Assembly: GCF_000316625.1 (NCBI RefSeq)
Contig: NC_019676.1
Coordinates: forward strand, 4,358,501 to 4,422,500
DNA length: 64,000 nt
Source of the DNA: Nostoc sp. PCC 7107
Lineage (GTDB): Bacteria > Cyanobacteriota > Cyanobacteriia > Cyanobacteriales > Nostocaceae
Direction: 5' to 3'
How positions within the stretch are numbered: position 1 is the first letter of the stretch; every line of letters starts with the position of its first letter. The position numbers were made by a program, and so were the translations under genes. Below the pieces are notes generated by a model that was not told where the DNA came from, did no database searches, and saw only the letters and a program-made list of their open reading frames with translations. Shown here piece by piece: positions 50,748 through 60,542 of this stretch.

Positions 50748-52061
50748 CTATTTTTCATTTGCCGAAAGCTTGTGATTTTGATAAGAGTGAAATACAACTC
50801 CACAAATAGCTGATAAAAATAACCAGGAGAGCGTATTCACTCGAAAATCAAATAAAGTGACATCCACTGTATTGAATAGTATCCATTGCCCAAATACCAA
50901 AAGATAACTAAAGAAGATTAACTTATCGGTTTTAGGTAAATAATTAGATTGGCGCAAAAATTGAATGCCTGCAATTAATATCCAAGCCAGTAAACCACAA
51001 AACACAAGAGTAGTAGGAAATCCCGTTTCCGCAGATAGCATCAAAAACAAGTTATGGGGATGGCCTAAATCAATGTGCATATTGGCTTTGTAGAGTGCAG
51101 AAAAACTACGTAAACCCCAACCAGTGAAAGGATGCTGTTGTGCCAAAGACCAAGCAAACTCCCATTGAGTTTTTCGCATTAAAGCAACTGGTCGATCTGG
51201 GTACATTTCATCATTTAACCGCGCCCAAAAGAAAGCCGGGACAACTCGGCGAAAAATTTGGGCAATGGGGGAAGGGGCAAAAGCTGCCAAAAGAATAGTA
51301 GTTACAACCGCAACCACGCTACCAACCAAGATGCGCCAACCTTGATAAAGTGCGTAAGCTAAACAGGCAGTTATGGCGATCGCCCATCCGTTGCGCGAGT
51401 TAGTTAAAATTAAGGCGGAAAAACTGGCAATTACAGTCAGGGTGAGAAAATACAGTTGGGAATTTTTTTTCTTTCTTGATTGCCATTGTTCTAGCAATAG
51501 CCCCAACCCTACAGTAAAGACGATCGCTAGATAAGCAGCCAACAGGTTAGCGTGCATAAATAAAGCGGCCATCCGCCCTGGTGGTTCTCCTCCAGGTGCG
51601 ATCGCCCAATCTAAAACAATCCACAAAAACTGTAATTTTAAAGCCCAAGCTAAAAACAATTGTCCAAAGCCCATAATGATCACTGGTACAGCACCAATTA
51701 CCAAAATCCAAGCTAGGTGGCGCAATTGGGCAATTGTCTGAATTAAAGTATTTAAGCCAGCAAAAACAAAAAAGTAAGGTACTAAATTAAATAGACCTAA
51801 AAAAGCATCAGTTTTATTTGTCGCAAATCCTGACGTAATTACCAGGAATAAAGTAAAAAGGGCAAATCCCCGATTAATCGGGCGGCGAATAATTGTGCGG
51901 TATTCTTGCAGCCAAGTGATTAAAGCTGCCAAAGCCATCGCCACAAACCCTAAAAACGGCGCTAGGGGAAAAATCAATAGCCCAATTTGGCAAGAATTCC
52001 AAGCAAATTGGCTTTGCGGGTTGGGATGATCAAAAGCGAGTTTCAAGCTGGCTCCCAACAT
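50748..52061 (-). CDS. O-antigen ligase/polymerase family (Wzy_C) membrane protein
   Basis: A 437-aa polytopic membrane protein with about 11 hydrophobic helices. The periplasmic loop signature is present: QHPFTGWGLRSFSALY followed by GHPHNLFLMLSAETG, typical of the O-antigen ligase superfamily, which links or polymerises polysaccharide on lipid carriers. TNSRNGW matches the family's short Arg-containing motif. Its start overlaps the end of the YaaW-like gene by 19 bp, indicating one transcript. Substrate is unknown. Confidence 0.9.
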   Translation of the reverse strand: MLGASLKLAFDHPNPQSQFAWNSCQIGLLIFPLAPFLGFVAMALAALITWLQEYRTIIRRPINRGFALFTLFLVITSGFATNKTDAFLGLFNLVPYFFVFAGLNTLIQTIAQLRHLAWILVIGAVPVIIMGFGQLFLAWALKLQFLWIVLDWAIAPGGEPPGRMAALFMHANLLAAYLAIVFTVGLGLLLEQWQSRKKKNSQLYFLTLTVIASFSALILTNSRNGWAIAITACLAYALYQGWRILVGSVVAVVTTILLAAFAPSPIAQIFRRVVPAFFWARLNDEMYPDRPVALMRKTQWEFAWSLAQQHPFTGWGLRSFSALYKANMHIDLGHPHNLFLMLSAETGFPTTLVFCGLLAWILIAGIQFLRQSNYLPKTDKLIFFSYLLVFGQWILFNTVDVTLFDFRVNTLSWLFLSAICGVVFHSYQNHKLSANEK

Positions 52062-52885
52062 TCTGTGCGAGTGAGGCGAATTTGTGCTAAGGCAAAAATA
52101 GTCGGGATAATGCGACCATAATTAGTGGCGATCGCTCTCCAACCTAAATCTGCCAAAAACCAAGTCCACATAGCTGGGCCGACAAAGGCAAACATTGTGC
52201 GAACTGCGCCATAACGTGCTGCACTCAACGTCATACCTCGCCGCGCCATTTGCAGGGCGAAATATGTTTCAAACTGGGTTTTTGCTACTGTTGAACCTGT
52301 AATTGCAGCTTGTTTCGCTACTTGATAGGTAGCAAAGTGCAGAGCAAATTGTTGAGCAATTTGTTTGAGAATAAATGGTTGAATAACAGAAGTCACAGCT
52401 AAAGCACTACCACCCTTAAAAATTAATCCCAAAGGGTCACGCTGCAACATGATTGGTAGGGGTTCTTTAAGTTCTGTTTTTACCAGATGACGCTGTACTT
52501 TGACAGTCAATTTTTGTTTTTCTTTTTCCGGGAGTTTTTTCCATACCTGCCCTAGCAGATGTAAAAATACTTCTGCTTCTAAATCGACAGTTGTTAACTG
52601 ATCAGAGTAAGGAATTTTTAAGTATTTACAAACTTGAATTAGCGCTTGGCGGTAAGTTACTTGGTTTGTACGTCCCCGTAAGACTGTTACTCCATCTGCT
52701 GCCAAAAACCGAAAACGCTCTTCTAATGAGTCTAACCAAGCTTGGCGGCTCTGGCTTTGAATTTCGATAGGTTCAGGTGTCTGAACATAATCTAGGGGAT
52801 TGAACTTTCGACTAAATAAAATTGCAGTTAAATCTTGCAATTCATCATCTGTTGCTAGTTCTAAGGCCGCCCTGAGTTCATCCAA
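52043..52885 (-). CDS. YaaW-like (DUF3944) protein
   Basis: A 280-aa protein. It opens MDELRAALELATDDELQDLTAILFSRKFNPLDYV, the DUF3944-like start, then FRFLAADGVTVLRGRTNQVTYRQALIQVCKYLKIPYS, and a later hydrophobic region with GLIFKGGSALAVTSVIQPFILKQIAQQFALHFATYQVAKQAA and TMFAFVGPAMWTWFLADLGWRAIATNYGRIIPTIFALAQIRL, which may enter the membrane. This plan matches YaaW-type proteins. Function is unknown; its 19-bp overlap with the O-antigen ligase gene suggests a shared task in the envelope. Confidence 0.82.
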   Translation of the reverse strand: MDELRAALELATDDELQDLTAILFSRKFNPLDYVQTPEPIEIQSQSRQAWLDSLEERFRFLAADGVTVLRGRTNQVTYRQALIQVCKYLKIPYSDQLTTVDLEAEVFLHLLGQVWKKLPEKEKQKLTVKVQRHLVKTELKEPLPIMLQRDPLGLIFKGGSALAVTSVIQPFILKQIAQQFALHFATYQVAKQAAITGSTVAKTQFETYFALQMARRGMTLSAARYGAVRTMFAFVGPAMWTWFLADLGWRAIATNYGRIIPTIFALAQIRLTRTECWEPA

Positions 52886-53030: not shown

Positions 53031-54065
53031 ATGATAGATGTTGCAGTGATTGGTGCTGGCATAGCGGGCTTAGTTTGCGCCCAGCAGTTAAAGCAAGTAG
53101 GATATGCGGTGTTAGTTGTGGAAAAGTCCCGTGGTTTGGGAGGAAGAATGGCGACACGCCGTTTACATGACACTTGGGCAGATCATGGCACTTGTTACCT
53201 CAAACCCAAAGGTGAATTTTTCCGAGAGTTTGTCGATTTATTGTGCGATCGCCAAATTATCACAGTTTGGAATCGTGACGAACTGCCAAACGCTGCACCG
53301 CGTTATATTGCACCTGCGGGGATGAGTGCGATCGCTAAATTTCTGGCTCAAGGTTTGGATGTGTTACTGAATCAACGGGTGATTGCGATTTATCCCACTC
53401 CCGAAAACACTTGGCGGTTAATTCTCGAATCTAGCAATGAAGAAATCACAGCCAAGGCGATTGTGCTGGCGATTCCTGCACCCCAAGCTGTAATGTTATT
53501 AGAACCATTGGGAGAAGAGTTACTCGGAACAGACTTTTTAAATAACCTGCGGGCGGTGGAATTTACGCCCTGTATCAGTGCGATCGCAGGTTATCCGGCT
53601 GATTCCCAACTTTTACCCAATTGGCAATCTCAAAGTTTTGCCGATGATCCTGTTTTGGGATGGATTGGTTTAGATAGTAGCAAGCGTCCCCAACCAAAAC
53701 AACCTGTATTTGTTGTCCAAAGCAGTGGCAAATTTGCCCAACTGCATCTAGAAACTACAGATTTACAACCTGTAGGACAAGAAATGTTGCAGCAAGCCGC
53801 CCAAACTCTGGCGCTTCCTTGGTTAGAGACACCGGAATGGCTGCAAGTACATCGTTGGCGTTATGCCTTTCCCAGTCATCCTTGCCCAGAAACTGTTTTA
53901 TCTGCCAATACTTCCCTACCTTTGGTTTGTTGTGGTGATTGGTGCGGCGGTAATCTTGTTGAAGGTGCAATGCTTTCTGGACTGGCCGCGTCCGTTGCAA
54001 TTAATCATCATCTGCATCAATTAACTCTCACTAGTGTGAACTTTTTCAAAATTTTTACCTTTTAA
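53031..54065 (+). CDS. FAD-dependent amine oxidase/renalase-like oxidoreductase
   Basis: A 344-aa flavoprotein. The FAD-binding start is clear: DVAVIGAGIAGLVCAQQLKQVGYAVLVVEKSRGLGGRMATRR (G-x-G-x-x-G, ribose-binding Glu, then GGRMATRR). The substrate half is WADHGTCYLKP in the middle and CCGDWCGGNLVEGAMLSGLAAS near the end, the second flavin contact. Such proteins oxidise reduced or mis-reduced nicotinamides or amines. It is divergent from the YaaW-like gene and followed by a terminator at 54080. Confidence 0.88.
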   Translation: MIDVAVIGAGIAGLVCAQQLKQVGYAVLVVEKSRGLGGRMATRRLHDTWADHGTCYLKPKGEFFREFVDLLCDRQIITVWNRDELPNAAPRYIAPAGMSAIAKFLAQGLDVLLNQRVIAIYPTPENTWRLILESSNEEITAKAIVLAIPAPQAVMLLEPLGEELLGTDFLNNLRAVEFTPCISAIAGYPADSQLLPNWQSQSFADDPVLGWIGLDSSKRPQPKQPVFVVQSSGKFAQLHLETTDLQPVGQEMLQQAAQTLALPWLETPEWLQVHRWRYAFPSHPCPETVLSANTSLPLVCCGDWCGGNLVEGAMLSGLAASVAINHHLHQLTLTSVNFFKIFTF

Positions 54066-54988: not shown

Positions 54989-55061
54989 ATATGATTTTTA
55001 CACTTTGTCTTAGTTGTTAACCTTGAAACATAAGTTCTGATAATCTATAAATAGTTAAAAG

Positions 55062-55104
55062 GCTAAAAGTAAGGAGTAGCAATAACTCCTTACTTTTAGC
55101 TTTT
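55062..55104 (+). terminator. Strong rho-independent terminator
   Basis: Perfect 16-bp stem: GCTAAAAGTAAGGAGT (55062-55077) with its complement (55085-55100), 7-base loop, then TTTT. It separates the 54611 gene from the Hsp70-like operon. Confidence 0.85.
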
Positions 55105-55223
55105 AGCTGTTCACGGATATATCCTTTCTATATCTATTCATCGGGAGTTAATTTTTCTGGCAATCAGGGAATCACTATAAGCTAAATTTATAAAGGGTGA
55201 AGTGCGATTAGTAAACTTAACCA

Positions 55224-56120
55224 ATGAAAACTATAACTACACTGTTTAACGCAGAACGTAATCAACTACAGATAGAGATTGATAATATAACTAGTATTGA
55301 ACAAATAGTTAAGCTCGTTCAAAATCGGCTTGATAATTTAGAAAGAATTTATATTAGCGAGCTAAATTTAACTCAAGTACGTTTAGCATCCTTTTTTGTG
55401 GAGATGCTACGACAGTCAGTCGGTAATTTGACTGTGGTTAATCAGTCTCTAGTTGAGTCACAAGAGCAAAAGCAAATTAGTATTTTAACTACAAATGTTT
55501 CCCCTAAAAGATTAATCCTAAAACTGCTTAAGGCGCTGATTTATGTCGGCATTTTAGGTTCTTTATTTTCCTTAACTAAAATTACCCTGAGTGCTTGGAT
55601 GGGTATCTTGCTAACTTCATTGCTTCTCGGTTTAGAAGTTGTGTTGCAACTGGATAAAAGTAATGTTACCTCCACAGAATTGTTAGAGATACCCCAACCA
55701 GTGCTGCGAGTGGATAGCAAACTGCTTTTAGATAACTTCGCTGATGCGCTGAATACTATTGATATAGCAGTGGCTAGGTTTGTCGAAGGAAACAAATTAG
55801 AAGACGATCGCACTTTAGAAGAATTACCAGAGTTATTAAATTTCCTCCAAAAGCTGATGGGTGCGTCATTTCTCGAACAGCCGCAAATGGCGATCGCTTT
55901 AACAAAACTCCTCCCCCAAATTTTAATGTCTCAAGGAATTCGCGCTCAACTTTACCACCAGCAAGCACCGCAAAATGAGCGAGAATATTTCGACTTTGAA
56001 CCCAGTATTGACCCAAATACCAAAGATTACGTTACCATCACACCTGCCTTGTTAAAAGGCGATCGCTTACTTCGGCGTGGTCGAGTGATTGAACCAGCGT
56101 ACTCTGAGGTGAAAGAATAG
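55224..56120 (+). CDS. Membrane protein with GrpE-like C-terminal half
   Basis: A 298-aa protein in three parts. The N-terminus (1-95) is a soluble alpha/beta segment, IEQIVKLVQNRLDNLERIYISELN. Two transmembrane helices follow (about 102-150, LIYVGILGSLFSLTKI and MGILLTSLLLGLEVVLQL). The C-terminus (about 170-298) has the order of GrpE, the Hsp70 nucleotide-exchange factor: a helix FADALNTIDIAVARFVEG, LLPQILMSQGIRAQLYH, FDFEPSIDPNTKDY, and a closing LLKGDRLLRRGRVIEPAYSEV, which recalls the GrpE ending K-G-Y-x-L-x-x-R-V-(L/I)-R-P-A-x-V. The Hsp70-like gene starts 14 bp downstream. A membrane-bound exchange factor for that ATPase is my inference. Confidence 0.6.
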   Translation: MKTITTLFNAERNQLQIEIDNITSIEQIVKLVQNRLDNLERIYISELNLTQVRLASFFVEMLRQSVGNLTVVNQSLVESQEQKQISILTTNVSPKRLILKLLKALIYVGILGSLFSLTKITLSAWMGILLTSLLLGLEVVLQLDKSNVTSTELLEIPQPVLRVDSKLLLDNFADALNTIDIAVARFVEGNKLEDDRTLEELPELLNFLQKLMGASFLEQPQMAIALTKLLPQILMSQGIRAQLYHQQAPQNEREYFDFEPSIDPNTKDYVTITPALLKGDRLLRRGRVIEPAYSEVKE

Positions 56121-56134
56121 CAGACAATAAAAGT

Positions 56135-58057
56135 ATGAAAATTTCAGAAACAATTGGTTTTGATTTGGGACATGGTGAGACAGCCGTAGCCAAAGCGATA
56201 GTTGAAAGCATCGAACCGCCCCAAATGTTGGAAATTAATAATAAAAAAAATCAAATTACTGCTTTAGGTTGGCATCCCAAACTTGGTTATTTGGTAGGAG
56301 AACAAGCTTTAATTCAAGCTGGTGTTACTCAACTGACAATCTCATTCAAGCAAAAACCCAACCATGATGCCAATTACAGAAAAACAATATCAACTTTTCT
56401 CGCTACTTATTATCACAAACTGCAAGAAAGCAAACAAATAGAAGGCGGTGAAAGTAGTTATTTTTACATTGGTTGCCCTTCGGGATGGTCAGTGAGCGAT
56501 CGCCAAGCATATCAAAAACTACTGCAAGAGGCTGGTATTCCCCACCTGAATGTCATCCCTGAATCCCGTGCGGCTTTTATGCAGGCCAAAGAAGCCGGAA
56601 AATTGGAGTATGAGAAACTCCTCGCATCAGTGCTAATTGTCGATATTGGCTCTTCCACTACAGATTTTACACTAGTAAAAAGCTTACATGAAATCCCCTT
56701 AGATTTCGGTAGTAATACTTTAGGTGCATCCTTAATAGACAAAGCGATTTTTGCCCGAACTCTGGCTAAACATGAGCAAAAAACCTTACTCGAAAAAGTA
56801 TTTCAAGAATATCCTCATCACCAAGCCCGTTGTGAATTAGCCTGTCGCAAAGCCAAAGAAGATTATTTTTCTAACGAACAGCTATATAATGACCCGCAAT
56901 CTTTCGCCCGTGGATTTGAGTCAATCAACGAACAGATTTATTTTATTCCCCAAGTCAACAAATTGATGATGGAGGAAATTCTGCACCAACCTTTACCCGA
57001 ACTAGGAAATAAAAGTTGGCTTCAGGCTTTTCATGATGCTGTCAGCGAAGCCAAAGCCAAACTACAACAACTTGATACAGTCCCAAAATTAGTGCTGATG
57101 ACTGGTGGTGCATCCCGAATGAAATTTACCCACCAAATTTGTCAGCAAATGTTTCCCGAACCAGAAAGCCAACTGCGCCCCGATCCCGAACCGGAACGCT
57201 GCATTGCGCTGGGTTTAGCGCGAGTCGGAAGATGGGATTTACGGGCGACGGCTTTTCAACAAGAAGTTAATCAACTATTAGATTCCCAAAAACTCAAACA
57301 ATTAATTGAGAGACATATTCCAGATTTAATTGAATTGTTAACTCAACCATTAGCCGAAAATTTGATTGATCACGCCGTCAGACCAGGAGTAAAAGAATGG
57401 CAAAAAAATAAAATTCGCACTCTGGCTGATTTGGAAACATCAATGAGAAATCGCGCAGAAGAGTGGTTGAAAGGTAATATCGCCCAACAGATAATTAACA
57501 ATCAATGTATTCTTTGGTTCAACAACAAAATTCAACCAGACTTAGCCGCAGAAACCGACCCAATTTGCCGCAAATTTCAAATACCCAGAAGTAGTTTAAG
57601 GTTTGAAGATAGCATTGAACCAGCTTTTGTTAACCCAGAATTACGAATTGGTGATGCAATTTTAGCTGATACTGTGGCGTTTATTGTGAATGTCGTCATT
57701 GGTGGCGGTACTGTAGCGAGTCTGATTACTCTCATTCTCACAGGACATTTGACTTGGCCGATCGCATTAGTCTACGGTGCGTCTGTGATGGCAGCAGGTA
57801 TGGAACTTAATCGTAAAACCGTCCAAGAAACAATCAAGAAAAATTTCGATATCCCCAGTTGGATTCGTCCTAATTTAATGAACGATCAGAAAATTGCAGA
57901 TATGTGCATTCAAATCAAACCAGAATTAGAAAACGTCTTTCGAGAACAATTAACTAATAATCAAGTAGCTTTTGAACAACTCACACAAAAAGTTGAACAA
58001 GGATTGCAAAAAGCCCTTTCTACGAAAGTTCAAGAGGCGATTATTTTAATTCAATAA
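56135..58057 (+). CDS. Hsp70/actin-fold ATPase with C-terminal membrane hairpin
   Basis: A 640-aa protein. The ATPase half is intact: phosphate-1 IGFDLGHGETAVAKA (residues 7-21), IPESRAAFMQAKEAG near 140 (as in Hsp70 EPTAAA), phosphate-2 VLIVDIGSSTTDFTLVK around 170, and adenosine site VLMTGGASRM near 323. There is no canonical Hsp70 peptide-binding domain. Instead residues about 370-500 are helical (LADLETSMRNRAEEWLKGNI), about 512-555 hold two hydrophobic helices (VAFIVNVVIGGGTVASLITLIL, LTWPIALVYGASVMAAG), and a helical tail follows to 640. The helix-membrane hairpin-helix plan recalls dynamin-like proteins. It forms an operon with the GrpE-like membrane protein. The role is unknown. Confidence 0.8.
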   Translation: MKISETIGFDLGHGETAVAKAIVESIEPPQMLEINNKKNQITALGWHPKLGYLVGEQALIQAGVTQLTISFKQKPNHDANYRKTISTFLATYYHKLQESKQIEGGESSYFYIGCPSGWSVSDRQAYQKLLQEAGIPHLNVIPESRAAFMQAKEAGKLEYEKLLASVLIVDIGSSTTDFTLVKSLHEIPLDFGSNTLGASLIDKAIFARTLAKHEQKTLLEKVFQEYPHHQARCELACRKAKEDYFSNEQLYNDPQSFARGFESINEQIYFIPQVNKLMMEEILHQPLPELGNKSWLQAFHDAVSEAKAKLQQLDTVPKLVLMTGGASRMKFTHQICQQMFPEPESQLRPDPEPERCIALGLARVGRWDLRATAFQQEVNQLLDSQKLKQLIERHIPDLIELLTQPLAENLIDHAVRPGVKEWQKNKIRTLADLETSMRNRAEEWLKGNIAQQIINNQCILWFNNKIQPDLAAETDPICRKFQIPRSSLRFEDSIEPAFVNPELRIGDAILADTVAFIVNVVIGGGTVASLITLILTGHLTWPIALVYGASVMAAGMELNRKTVQETIKKNFDIPSWIRPNLMNDQKIADMCIQIKPELENVFREQLTNNQVAFEQLTQKVEQGLQKALSTKVQEAIILIQ

Positions 58058-58376: not shown

Positions 58377-60542
58377 ATGCCGAAACGCCTTCTAGTTGTT
58401 GAATCTCCTGGGAAAGTCAAAAAGCTCAGTCAGATTTTGGGTGCTGATTGGATTGTCCGAGCTAGTTGCGGTCACATCCGCGAACTCAGCGATACAGGCG
58501 AAGATTCGTTGGGTTTTGTCATTGATGATGATCATGTCAAATGCAACTATGTACCGCGTGACCAACGCTCTAAAGAAACTATCCAGCAGCTAAAGGCAGT
58601 TAGCAAGCAGGTTGATGAAGTTGTTCTCGCCACAGACCCAGATAGAGAAGGGGAAACAATTGCTTGGCATCTCAAAGAAGTGCTGGGATTACGGGAACCG
58701 AAACGAGTTATCTACAGTGAAATTACCGCCTCTGCGGTGCAAAGTGCGATCGCAAATCCTCGCAAACTCGATTCTAACTTGGTTGGTGCTGGACTTTGCC
58801 GCGATTGTCTCGATAAGCTTGTAGGCTACAAAGGTAGTCCCTTAGTTTGGGCGTTAAATAATGGTGCGAAGAGTGTCGGTCGAGTACAAAGTGCGACTTT
58901 GCACCTAATATGTCAGCGAGAACGAGAAATTGTCACCTTTGTACCCCAAGACTATTGGAGTGTGTGGGTAGACTACGCCGAAGGATTCCGGGCTTTTTAT
59001 AAAGGCACAGCCAATTCTCCCACAGATGCGCCAGAATCAGAAACAGAAGCCCATGACGATGCAGCAGATAATAGCACAAAAGCGCCAGAGTCAAAACGGG
59101 TTCTTTCGGAAGCAGAAGCCATACGTTTAGTCGAAGAAGCTCGTCAGCATCCCCATCAAGTGATACAAGTTGAAGGTAAAACTGTATATCGTCAACCACC
59201 GCCACCATTTATTACTTCCACACTGCAACAAGCCGCCGGTTCCAAGCTAAAATTAGCCCCAGACAAAACAATGGTTTTAGCCCAAAAGCTGTATGAAGCT
59301 GGGTTAATTACATATATGCGGACAGATTCAGTAATGTTAAGCCCTGAATTCTGCACTGCGGCTCGTCAATGGTTGGAAGAACATGATCCGCAGAATGTAC
59401 CACAGCAAGTTGCCAAACATCGCAGTGCGAAAACAGCCCAAGAAGCACATGAAGCGATTCGCCCTACCGATGTATTTCGTCCATCAGTCCAGCTACGGCA
59501 AGAATTACCTGCTGATGAATTTGACTTGTATGTGATGATTTGGAAAAGAGCGATCGCCTCTCAATGTCGGGCTGCTCAACTCCGCAAAACTCAGATTATC
59601 ACTCAGTCGGGTTCTTTGTTGTGGCAAGCTAGAGGCCAAGTAATCGAATTTTACGGTTACGCTCGCTATTGGAATAACCTCAGCAAAGATAGTGTGTTAA
59701 CTGTGGTGCAACAGGGACAAGCCTTAACTCTAGACAATGCTAATTCAGAGAAAAAACAGACTCAGCCGCCACCTCGTTACAGTGAACCGAAATTAGTCCA
59801 ACTCATGGAGCGTAAAGGTATCGGTCGTCCGAGTACATTCGCGCCCACGGTTGCTACCCTCAAGAAACGAAGTTATGTGCAGTTAATCAAGGGAAATCTT
59901 CAACCCACAACGTTAGGGCTAGAAGTTGATGATTTTTTGCAGAAAGCTTTGCCAGATTTACTAGAAGCAGAGTTCACCGCCAAAATGGAAAGCGCCCTCG
60001 ATGCGATCGCCGCAGGCAAACAAGGCTGGCAGCAATACTTAACAACTTGGAATAAAAATTACTTCGTTCCAGCCTTAGCAAAAGCCAAAACTGTTGTTAT
60101 CATACCTTCAAATACGAAAACCTCAGTATCTGAAAGCAAATATGATACTTCTAAAACTCGCTGTCCTGAGTGTAATAATTTTCTCGCTAAAATTCCCAGC
60201 AGCAAAGTCAAGAAAAAATATTTCCTCAAATGCAACAGTGGCTGTGCAAATATAGTCCTATTTTGGAGTGACTTTAACAAATCTTGGCAACCACCACGCG
60301 CCCAAGAAACCAAGCCAGAAAATCGCTCCCAATCACCTGCGAAATTAAGCTCGTATCCCTGTCCAGTCTGCAAAAAACCTCTAGAAGAGTATAGCTATAC
60401 CAAAGACGGACAGAGCAAAACCATGCTGCGTTGTTCTGCTGCGTCTCGTCAAGATAAAAAGCATAAAGATGTGGCTTATTTTAGTACAGCCAAAGGTTGG
60501 TGGAGTCCTAAATTTGGCGAGTTGAATTCAGAGAGAAAATAA
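58377..60542 (+). CDS. topA: DNA topoisomerase I (type IA)
   Basis: Relaxes negative supercoils by cutting one strand through a tyrosine. The 721-aa protein shows a Toprim start (KRLLVVESPGKVKKLSQIL, ATDPDREGETIAWHLKEVL), DKLVGYKGSPLVW, SVGRVQSATLHLI, the catalytic Y313 in LITYMRTDSVMLS, AHEAIRPTD and LMERKGIGRPSTFAPTVATL. Two C-terminal Cys-rich parts follow (CPECNNFL and CNSGC; CPVCKKPL). It is shorter than the main TopA with its many zinc ribbons, and an acidic insert (SETEAHDDAAD) sits near residue 225, so it may be a second paralogue. Confidence 0.94.
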   Translation: MPKRLLVVESPGKVKKLSQILGADWIVRASCGHIRELSDTGEDSLGFVIDDDHVKCNYVPRDQRSKETIQQLKAVSKQVDEVVLATDPDREGETIAWHLKEVLGLREPKRVIYSEITASAVQSAIANPRKLDSNLVGAGLCRDCLDKLVGYKGSPLVWALNNGAKSVGRVQSATLHLICQREREIVTFVPQDYWSVWVDYAEGFRAFYKGTANSPTDAPESETEAHDDAADNSTKAPESKRVLSEAEAIRLVEEARQHPHQVIQVEGKTVYRQPPPPFITSTLQQAAGSKLKLAPDKTMVLAQKLYEAGLITYMRTDSVMLSPEFCTAARQWLEEHDPQNVPQQVAKHRSAKTAQEAHEAIRPTDVFRPSVQLRQELPADEFDLYVMIWKRAIASQCRAAQLRKTQIITQSGSLLWQARGQVIEFYGYARYWNNLSKDSVLTVVQQGQALTLDNANSEKKQTQPPPRYSEPKLVQLMERKGIGRPSTFAPTVATLKKRSYVQLIKGNLQPTTLGLEVDDFLQKALPDLLEAEFTAKMESALDAIAAGKQGWQQYLTTWNKNYFVPALAKAKTVVIIPSNTKTSVSESKYDTSKTRCPECNNFLAKIPSSKVKKKYFLKCNSGCANIVLFWSDFNKSWQPPRAQETKPENRSQSPAKLSSYPCPVCKKPLEEYSYTKDGQSKTMLRCSAASRQDKKHKDVAYFSTAKGWWSPKFGELNSERK

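Follow-up and report, generated by a model that had tools for sequence, protein, structure and literature searches.

Hsp70 and GrpE rank among the best-studied chaperones, and the head of DnaK works through its substrate-binding domain. The gene pair described here departs from this scheme: it encodes P2, an ATPase whose Hsp70-type head is joined to a helical membrane body, and P1, a partner protein with a hydrophobic hairpin and a C-terminal domain that is possibly related to GrpE. Both genes lie within a stretch of 64,000 nucleotides from Nostoc sp. PCC 7107 (contig NC_019676.1, positions 4,358,501 to 4,422,500; all of it is referred to here as the window). P1 and P2 are a conserved two-gene unit in many cyanobacteria, and they might jointly serve as an ATP-driven switch embedded in the membrane.

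Several described systems share individual traits with this arrangement. A DnaK1/DnaJ3/GrpE system is placed at the type IV pili of N. punctiforme in a report whose available part counts a single annotated GrpE in this organism (PMC9239167). According to the accessible portion of another study, Hsp70 and GrpE, together with an Hsp70 devoid of the peptide-binding domain, are found in GAP1-N2 conflict neighbourhoods (Kaur 2020; PMC7159879). FcmB and FcmC, as presented in the accessible part of their description, are an actin-like pair at the membrane of filamentous cyanobacteria (PMC12645912). Literature searches on Hsp70/GrpE, membrane-anchored GrpE-like factors, EACC1 caspases, HerA and dynamin-like proteins, conflict and anti-phage systems, and actin-like cyanobacterial proteins retrieved no paper whose title or abstract opening describes the P1-P2 pair itself.

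The P1-P2 gene pair and its occurrence

P1 (55224..56120, + strand) is an open reading frame of 298 amino acids with N-terminal helices (residues 4-78), a hydrophobic hairpin (about 94-144), further helices (165-236) and the putative GrpE-like domain (about 225-291). Its stop codon is separated by 14 bases from the start of P2 (56135..58057, + strand), a frame of 640 amino acids composed of the Hsp70-type nucleotide-binding head (residues 1-363; 56135..57223, +) and the C-terminal body (residues 365-640; 57227..58054, +). The body is delineated by secondary structure, hydropathy, a match to a caspase fusion and the alignments A1 and A7. Positions and spacing of the two frames in the open reading frame listing are those given in an initial annotation of this DNA.

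Homologues of both proteins are numerous: 696 for P1 at E<=1e-3, and at least 893 for P2 at E<=1e-5, the latter scored among 7993 candidates sharing most words. Some of the P2 homologues among the matches listed carry the source name ParM. Among 60 relatives, P1 is present in 25 genomes and P2 in 28, and all genomes with P1 are among those with P2. Genome G012 has no P1 match, and its P2 gene (locus L090) is interrupted, as judged by eye, by a transposase-like gene; a leftover piece of the P1 C-terminus is recognizable at this locus (E 5e-11). Genomes G042 and G044 yield weak P2 matches (1e-6 and 2e-4, respectively) and no P1; the G042 match, about 570 bases away from the GrpE of this genome, probably represents DnaK. 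In a phylum-wide sample of 386 genomes, 16 were matched by the P1 profile at E<=0.01 (13 of them at 9e-12 or better), and within the order the profile of the P2 body matched 81 of 388 genomes at E<=0.01 (77 of them below 1e-7). A pattern scan of 84,980 species genomes returned 161 P2 relatives, the best 80 of which are all cyanobacteria by title. P2 is carried by one plasmid record, that of Calothrix brevissima NIES-22, which is predicted to be conjugative, and matched none of the phage records.

Pairing was counted in 89 loci, comprising the window, the best 80 loci of the pattern scan and eight divergent ones. P1 is located upstream of P2 and on the same strand in 86 of them, directly adjacent in 84; the two genes are separated by exactly 14 bases in 35 of these pairs and by no more than 51 in 58. 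As the loci were fetched by P2, these numbers tell how often P2 has P1, and not the reverse. The pairing proposed in the initial annotation is thereby borne out, and the ATPases are not, as it had allowed for, mostly found without their partner. The three exceptions are L090, L157 and L196; in the last of these, only 218 bases separate the start of P2 from the end of the contig. Among the divergent loci outside this count (L223 and L261-L268), P1 precedes P2 in L223, L263 and L265, P2 precedes P1 in L261 and L262, and no P1 was found in L268, which encodes a P2 body only. Several observations speak against the switch that we propose below: L157 has a P2 lacking a convincing P1 in 2.4 kb of upstream DNA, no P1 was found in L264, L266 (P2 truncated) and L267, and a common third gene beside the pair is lacking, in that the next best neighbour occurs in 23 of the 89 loci, and the best one downstream of P2 in 20. 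Hence, there is no conserved J-domain partner gene next to P1 and P2.

Domain relationships of P2 and P1

The P2 head matches the Pfam families MreB_Mbl (1.8e-6) and HSP70 (5.2e-6) within residues 6-362, with further weaker matches. In the structural model of P2 (mean predicted local distance difference test score, pLDDT, 72), the head (about residues 3-363) resembles the nucleotide-binding domains of Hsp70 and Hsp110, which lead the structural matches, and its predicted fold is that of the Hsp70 nucleotide-binding domain. Six residues, D10, K72, E143, D170, G324 and G325, are identical in all 51 aligned P2 proteins, and E143 and D170 align with Hsc70 motifs. We take K72 to be the counterpart of Hsc70 K71, and the six residues presumably form the active site, representing the Asp of the phosphate 1 motif, the Lys, the Glu, the Asp of the phosphate 2 motif and the adenosine GG. 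The head would bind and hydrolyse ATP in the manner of an Hsp70 nucleotide-binding domain. A substrate-binding domain is absent from P2, since the HSP70 match stops at residue 362 and residues 367-639 are modelled as helices, with no beta-sandwich. Both features, the Hsp70-type head and the loss of the peptide-binding domain, had been recognized in the initial annotation. The near tie between MreB_Mbl and HSP70, which leaves the head not separable by sequence alone, and a PDB search with the A3 profile that matched only an MreB chain speak against so specific an assignment. NCBIfam contains nothing near its cut-offs for P1 or P2.

Beyond residue 362, no Pfam match to P2 is better than E 0.29, and for the body of the window protein no match is better than E 0.06 in Pfam, NCBIfam or PADLOC. 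The model shows long helices around a hydrophobic stretch (residues 504-546), and P1 contains a corresponding stretch at residues 96-144; both proposed membrane hairpins are thus evident in the hydropathy profiles. They are weaker in some divergent relatives: no 19-residue segment reaches the hydropathy threshold in three of eight P1 proteins tested (L085, L223 and L261) and in one of nine P2 proteins (L223), and membrane insertion is therefore less clear there.

The P2 body is a module shared with caspase-family proteases. A protein of 552 amino acids from genome G009, a member of the same genus (L091:4326-5984), matches residues 358-629 of P2 with 25% identity (E 1.6e-9). A caspase domain (PF00656, 1.5e-20) that displays the motifs SGHG and DSC makes up the N-terminal half of this protein. 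Its C-terminal half, scored among 7998 candidates sharing most words, retrieves at least three caspase-headed proteins (that of L091 itself, P0242 and P0243). Over the entire body, first helices and hairpin included, the caspase fusions align with P2 at 17-22% identity; P0241 bears the NCBI name 'caspase, EACC1-associated type [Nostoc sp. FACHB-280]'. No P1 match exists in the L091 neighbourhood, and the strain as a whole carries both the caspase fusion and a P1-P2 pair. The headless body in L268 measures 323 amino acids. Alignment A7 of the body superseded A1, whose profile matched 33 of 386 genomes, mostly at caspase heads because one full-length caspase had been included, with at least 11 real body matches.

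The head is likewise found in other combinations. Two P2-type heads precede one body in a protein of 1078 amino acids (L126:6774-10007, - strand), and in another of 1123 amino acids a canonical HSP70 head (5.1e-38) precedes a P2 head and body (L262:7440-10808, - strand); judged by eye, L261:25-2553 (+ strand) is the end of the same fusion as in L262, cut by the contig. These tandem arrangements suggest that two heads act together. The double-headed protein also matches PADLOC PDC-M61B (1.2e-5) in its second head, and two dynamin-family GTPases are encoded further along in L261.

A dynamin-like nature of the body, as proposed in the initial annotation, could not be established. Neither P1 nor P2 matches the GTPase domain Dynamin_N at E<=1 in Pfam. 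We scored P1 and the P2 body in profile comparisons with two sets of dynamin bodies taken from relatives, one family of 16 and one of 6 sequences, with column shuffles and reversed profiles as controls, and the real score beat 60 of 60 shuffles in all four tests. For P1, the scores of 39.0 and 37.9 compare with 32.6 and 39.0 for its reversed profile and fall to 17.2 and 14.4 when the hairpin is masked; they stem from the hydrophobic hairpin and were consequently not accepted as evidence that P1 and dynamin bodies are homologous. The P2 body reached 36.7 against the 16-sequence family (reversed 31.5; 0 of 60 shuffles), with aligned stretches that shift between tests, and 26.0 with its hairpin masked (reversed 22.4; 0 of 60), in an inconsistent register; the part before the hairpin scored 26.5 (0 of 60) and the hairpin alone 17.0. 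Against the six-sequence family, the masked body scored 16.1, a value reached by 11 of 60 shuffles, so that the small excess of P2 is confined to one of the two families. The divergent P1 of L126 matches PADLOC LeoB (2.5e-5), which may reflect its hairpin too. Compared with each other, P1 and the P2 body align over 11 columns (hhalign probability 3.6%; 0 of 60 shuffles reach the score).

P1 is the more elusive protein. Pfam yields nothing for it below E 0.2, and the mean pLDDT of its model is 61, with residues 248-298 below 50; an N-terminal STAS-like domain was considered and dropped, the model showing only helices there. The initial annotation had read its C-terminal half as GrpE and quoted the sequence KGDRLLRRGRVIEPAYSEV, which lies near the C-terminal end. 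We compared P1 with 28 GrpE proteins, 19 canonical cyanobacterial ones and nine divergent ones (several with an apparent helix-turn-helix, as judged by eye); the divergent set excludes four frames that are not GrpE, and a truncated GrpE was replaced by a fuller-length version. The last 136 columns of the P1 profile scored 20.5 (0 of 300 column shuffles; reversed 15.8; hhalign probability 3.4%), and three unrelated profiles reached 13.9-17.7 in the same test. Nine window-like P1 proteins scored 20.3 (1 of 100 shuffles), placing columns 31-127 on GrpE 58-162, and 11 divergent ones scored 21.8 (0 of 100), placing columns 31-129 on GrpE 65-164. Hence, two separate clades of P1 align with GrpE in nearly the same register, and it is P1 residues 225-291 (55896..56096, + strand) that weakly match the last bundle helix and the beta-domain of GrpE. 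The signal depends on the C-terminal strands because it weakens when the last 20 columns are trimmed (2-10 of 100 shuffles); when the profile was restricted to its first 66 columns, the score was reached by 2-5 of 100.

Considerable evidence stands on the other side. P1 does not match GrpE (PF01025) at E<=1, a PF01025 search of the window's genome at E<=1 found no match at P1, and GrpE is absent among 25 of 41 families, those listed for 16 P1 members. First alignments with the 19 canonical GrpE proteins gave no signal; subsequent scores against this set were reached by 3 of 60 shuffles in local and 17 of 60 in global mode, and in six variants by 2-13 of 100, with other stretches aligned. When the 11 divergent P1 proteins were set against the nine divergent GrpE proteins, the reversed profile (20.0) exceeded the real one (16.1), and the hhalign probability between P1 and GrpE was never above 5.4%. 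What survives of the claimed GrpE likeness is therefore the concordant alignment of two clades with the full set of 28, whereas a Pfam assignment and convincing similarity to canonical GrpE do not. Judged from these profile alignments, we favour, with reservation, the view that the C-terminal region of P1 would be a very divergent GrpE-type domain. In addition to the canonical GrpE gene, the window's genome contains a second one of GrpE type (L278; C1, about 2953253-2953678, - strand), whose divergent product apparently begins with a helix-turn-helix in its N-terminal part.

A possible membrane switch and its alternatives

We propose, with confidence evenly divided between acceptance and doubt, that P1 and P2 constitute a membrane-embedded ATP switch made from parts of the Hsp70 system that drives a membrane output module. 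The P2 head would cycle ATP, and its opening and closing would act on the attached helical body and hairpin in place of a substrate-binding domain. Membrane-anchored P1 might, through its GrpE-like C-terminal domain, speed the release of ADP or hold the nucleotide-free state. Two P2 heads would probably work together, as the tandem-head relatives suggest, and the output could be a changed assembly or membrane insertion of the P2 body. Of this scheme, we observe the pairing of the genes, the fold of the head in the model, the hydrophobic hairpins and the sharing of the body module; ATP hydrolysis, the exchange activity, the contact between P1 and P2, the dimerisation of the heads and the membrane output are inferred. 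Chaperone, cytoskeletal and cell-death roles are possible for this pair.

An Hsp70-type head next to a GrpE-like partner would be at home in a folding machine, and P1-P2 could accordingly be a true chaperone in membrane-protein quality control, with the body or P1 holding clients that are released by the ATPase cycle. We consider this unlikely, as P2 lacks a substrate-binding domain, no J-domain gene accompanies the pair, and its patchy presence (25 of the 60 relatives) is unlike that of a housekeeping function.

In a cell-death or defence switch, the body would be a membrane effector held off by the ATPase and P1 until a trigger arrives, and the caspase-headed relatives would be alternative effectors. 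The occurrence of the same body on proteases with SGHG and DSC motifs fits this scenario, as does the company kept by divergent relatives: a HerA/DUF87-like ATPase is encoded beside P2 in seven loci (L126, L127, L223 and L263-L266), five of which also contain a zinc-peptidase-like gene (PF15890 at 1.7e-5, slightly below the family cut-off), and transposase- and resolvase-like genes lie, as read by eye, near the pair in L223. The conflict neighbourhoods outlined in the available part of Kaur (2020; PMC7159879) also hold an Hsp70 without the peptide-binding domain, alongside Hsp70 and GrpE. The HerA-like gene occurs in none of the 80 pattern-scan loci, of which 56 include the 6-kb flanks on both sides. 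Collectively, the reuse of the body and the HerA/peptidase company hint that part of the family serves in stress, conflict or cell death. The window pair, however, lacks such neighbours, and its genome yields no match to the L126 HerA protein at E<=1e-5. Moreover, PADLOC gives no match for P1 and only two, at E 0.06, for P2, the caspase fusions look rare, with three found among the 7998 candidates scored, and the pair is stably kept, as its recurrent 14-base gap attests. We therefore regard this explanation as doubtful for the pair as a whole. Similarly speculative, and in our estimate rather improbable, is the idea that the Hsp70 cycle has been rewired as a membrane execution switch, with ATPase and caspase acting on one membrane assembly through the output module they share, in filamentous bacteria for which programmed cell death has been reported.

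That P2 polymerises at the membrane like MreB or ParM, with P1 as anchor or nucleator, finds an echo in the MreB matches, the ParM names and the FcmB/FcmC precedent (PMC12645912, as far as its accessible part goes), but is very improbable given structural matches led by Hsp70/Hsp110, an FcmB operon of reverse order and the canonical Hsp70 head fused to P2 in L262.

If the proposed membrane switch is real, the ATPase-exchange cycle would be a portable device able to act on membranes.

Other genes surround the pair and its relatives. Upstream of P1 are a frame of 125 amino acids without Pfam match at E<=0.001 and the gene at 53031-54065 for a flavoprotein resembling amine oxidases (Pfam Amino_oxidase 1.2e-25), and a type I DNA topoisomerase (58377-60542) follows P2. 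Between the 125-residue frame and P1, a near-perfect inverted repeat (55056-55108; the RNA of 55040-55120 folds with -36.1 kcal/mol, z -9.2) may be a terminator, a small mobile repeat or a regulatory hairpin. A frame of 280 amino acids (52043-52885, - strand), also without Pfam match at E<=0.001, resembles, as we presume, YaaW-type proteins. ThiF and DUF697/EcsC-like genes are present in L127, and the divergent P2 of L267 (5666-7561) is flanked by an M28-like peptidase gene upstream (by eye) and by a gene for a helical protein of 377 amino acids downstream.

Comparison with described systems

With DnaK and GrpE, the pair has in common an Hsp70-type head with conserved active-site positions and a neighbouring protein that shows weak alignment to GrpE in its C-terminal domain. 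It differs in that P2 carries a helical membrane body instead of the substrate-binding domain, in the hydrophobic hairpin of P1, and in the missing J-domain gene. The GAP1-N2 theme, to the extent covered by the available portion of its description, offers a peptide-binding-less Hsp70 head in one neighbourhood with Hsp70 and GrpE; that theme is reported mainly from actinobacteria and firmicutes, beside GAP1-N2 GTPase systems, whereas P1-P2 is mostly stand-alone, cyanobacterial and equipped with hydrophobic hairpins (PMC7159879).

FcmB/FcmC likewise combines an ATPase of the actin/Hsp70 superfamily with a partner gene, and ParM recurs among the names of P2 homologues. In the accessible part of that work, FcmB is ParM-like and precedes its partner in the operon, whereas in P1-P2 the ATPase gene follows; its main text nowhere uses the terms Hsp70, GrpE or transmembrane (PMC12645912). 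The reversed order and the lack of a common gene downstream of P2 led us to reject FcmB/FcmC as the identity of our pair. Bacterial dynamin-like proteins and LeoB resemble P1 and P2 in having long helices around a hydrophobic hairpin; P1 and P2, however, possess no GTPase, and the similarity of P1 is that of the hairpin alone. In the EACC1-associated caspase (P0241), a protease head replaces the ATPase and P1 is missing from the neighbourhood examined (L091), but the C-terminal half is the P2 body. This common body directly connects the cell-death proteases of multicellular cyanobacteria with an Hsp70-type ATPase, in a way that is open to experiment.

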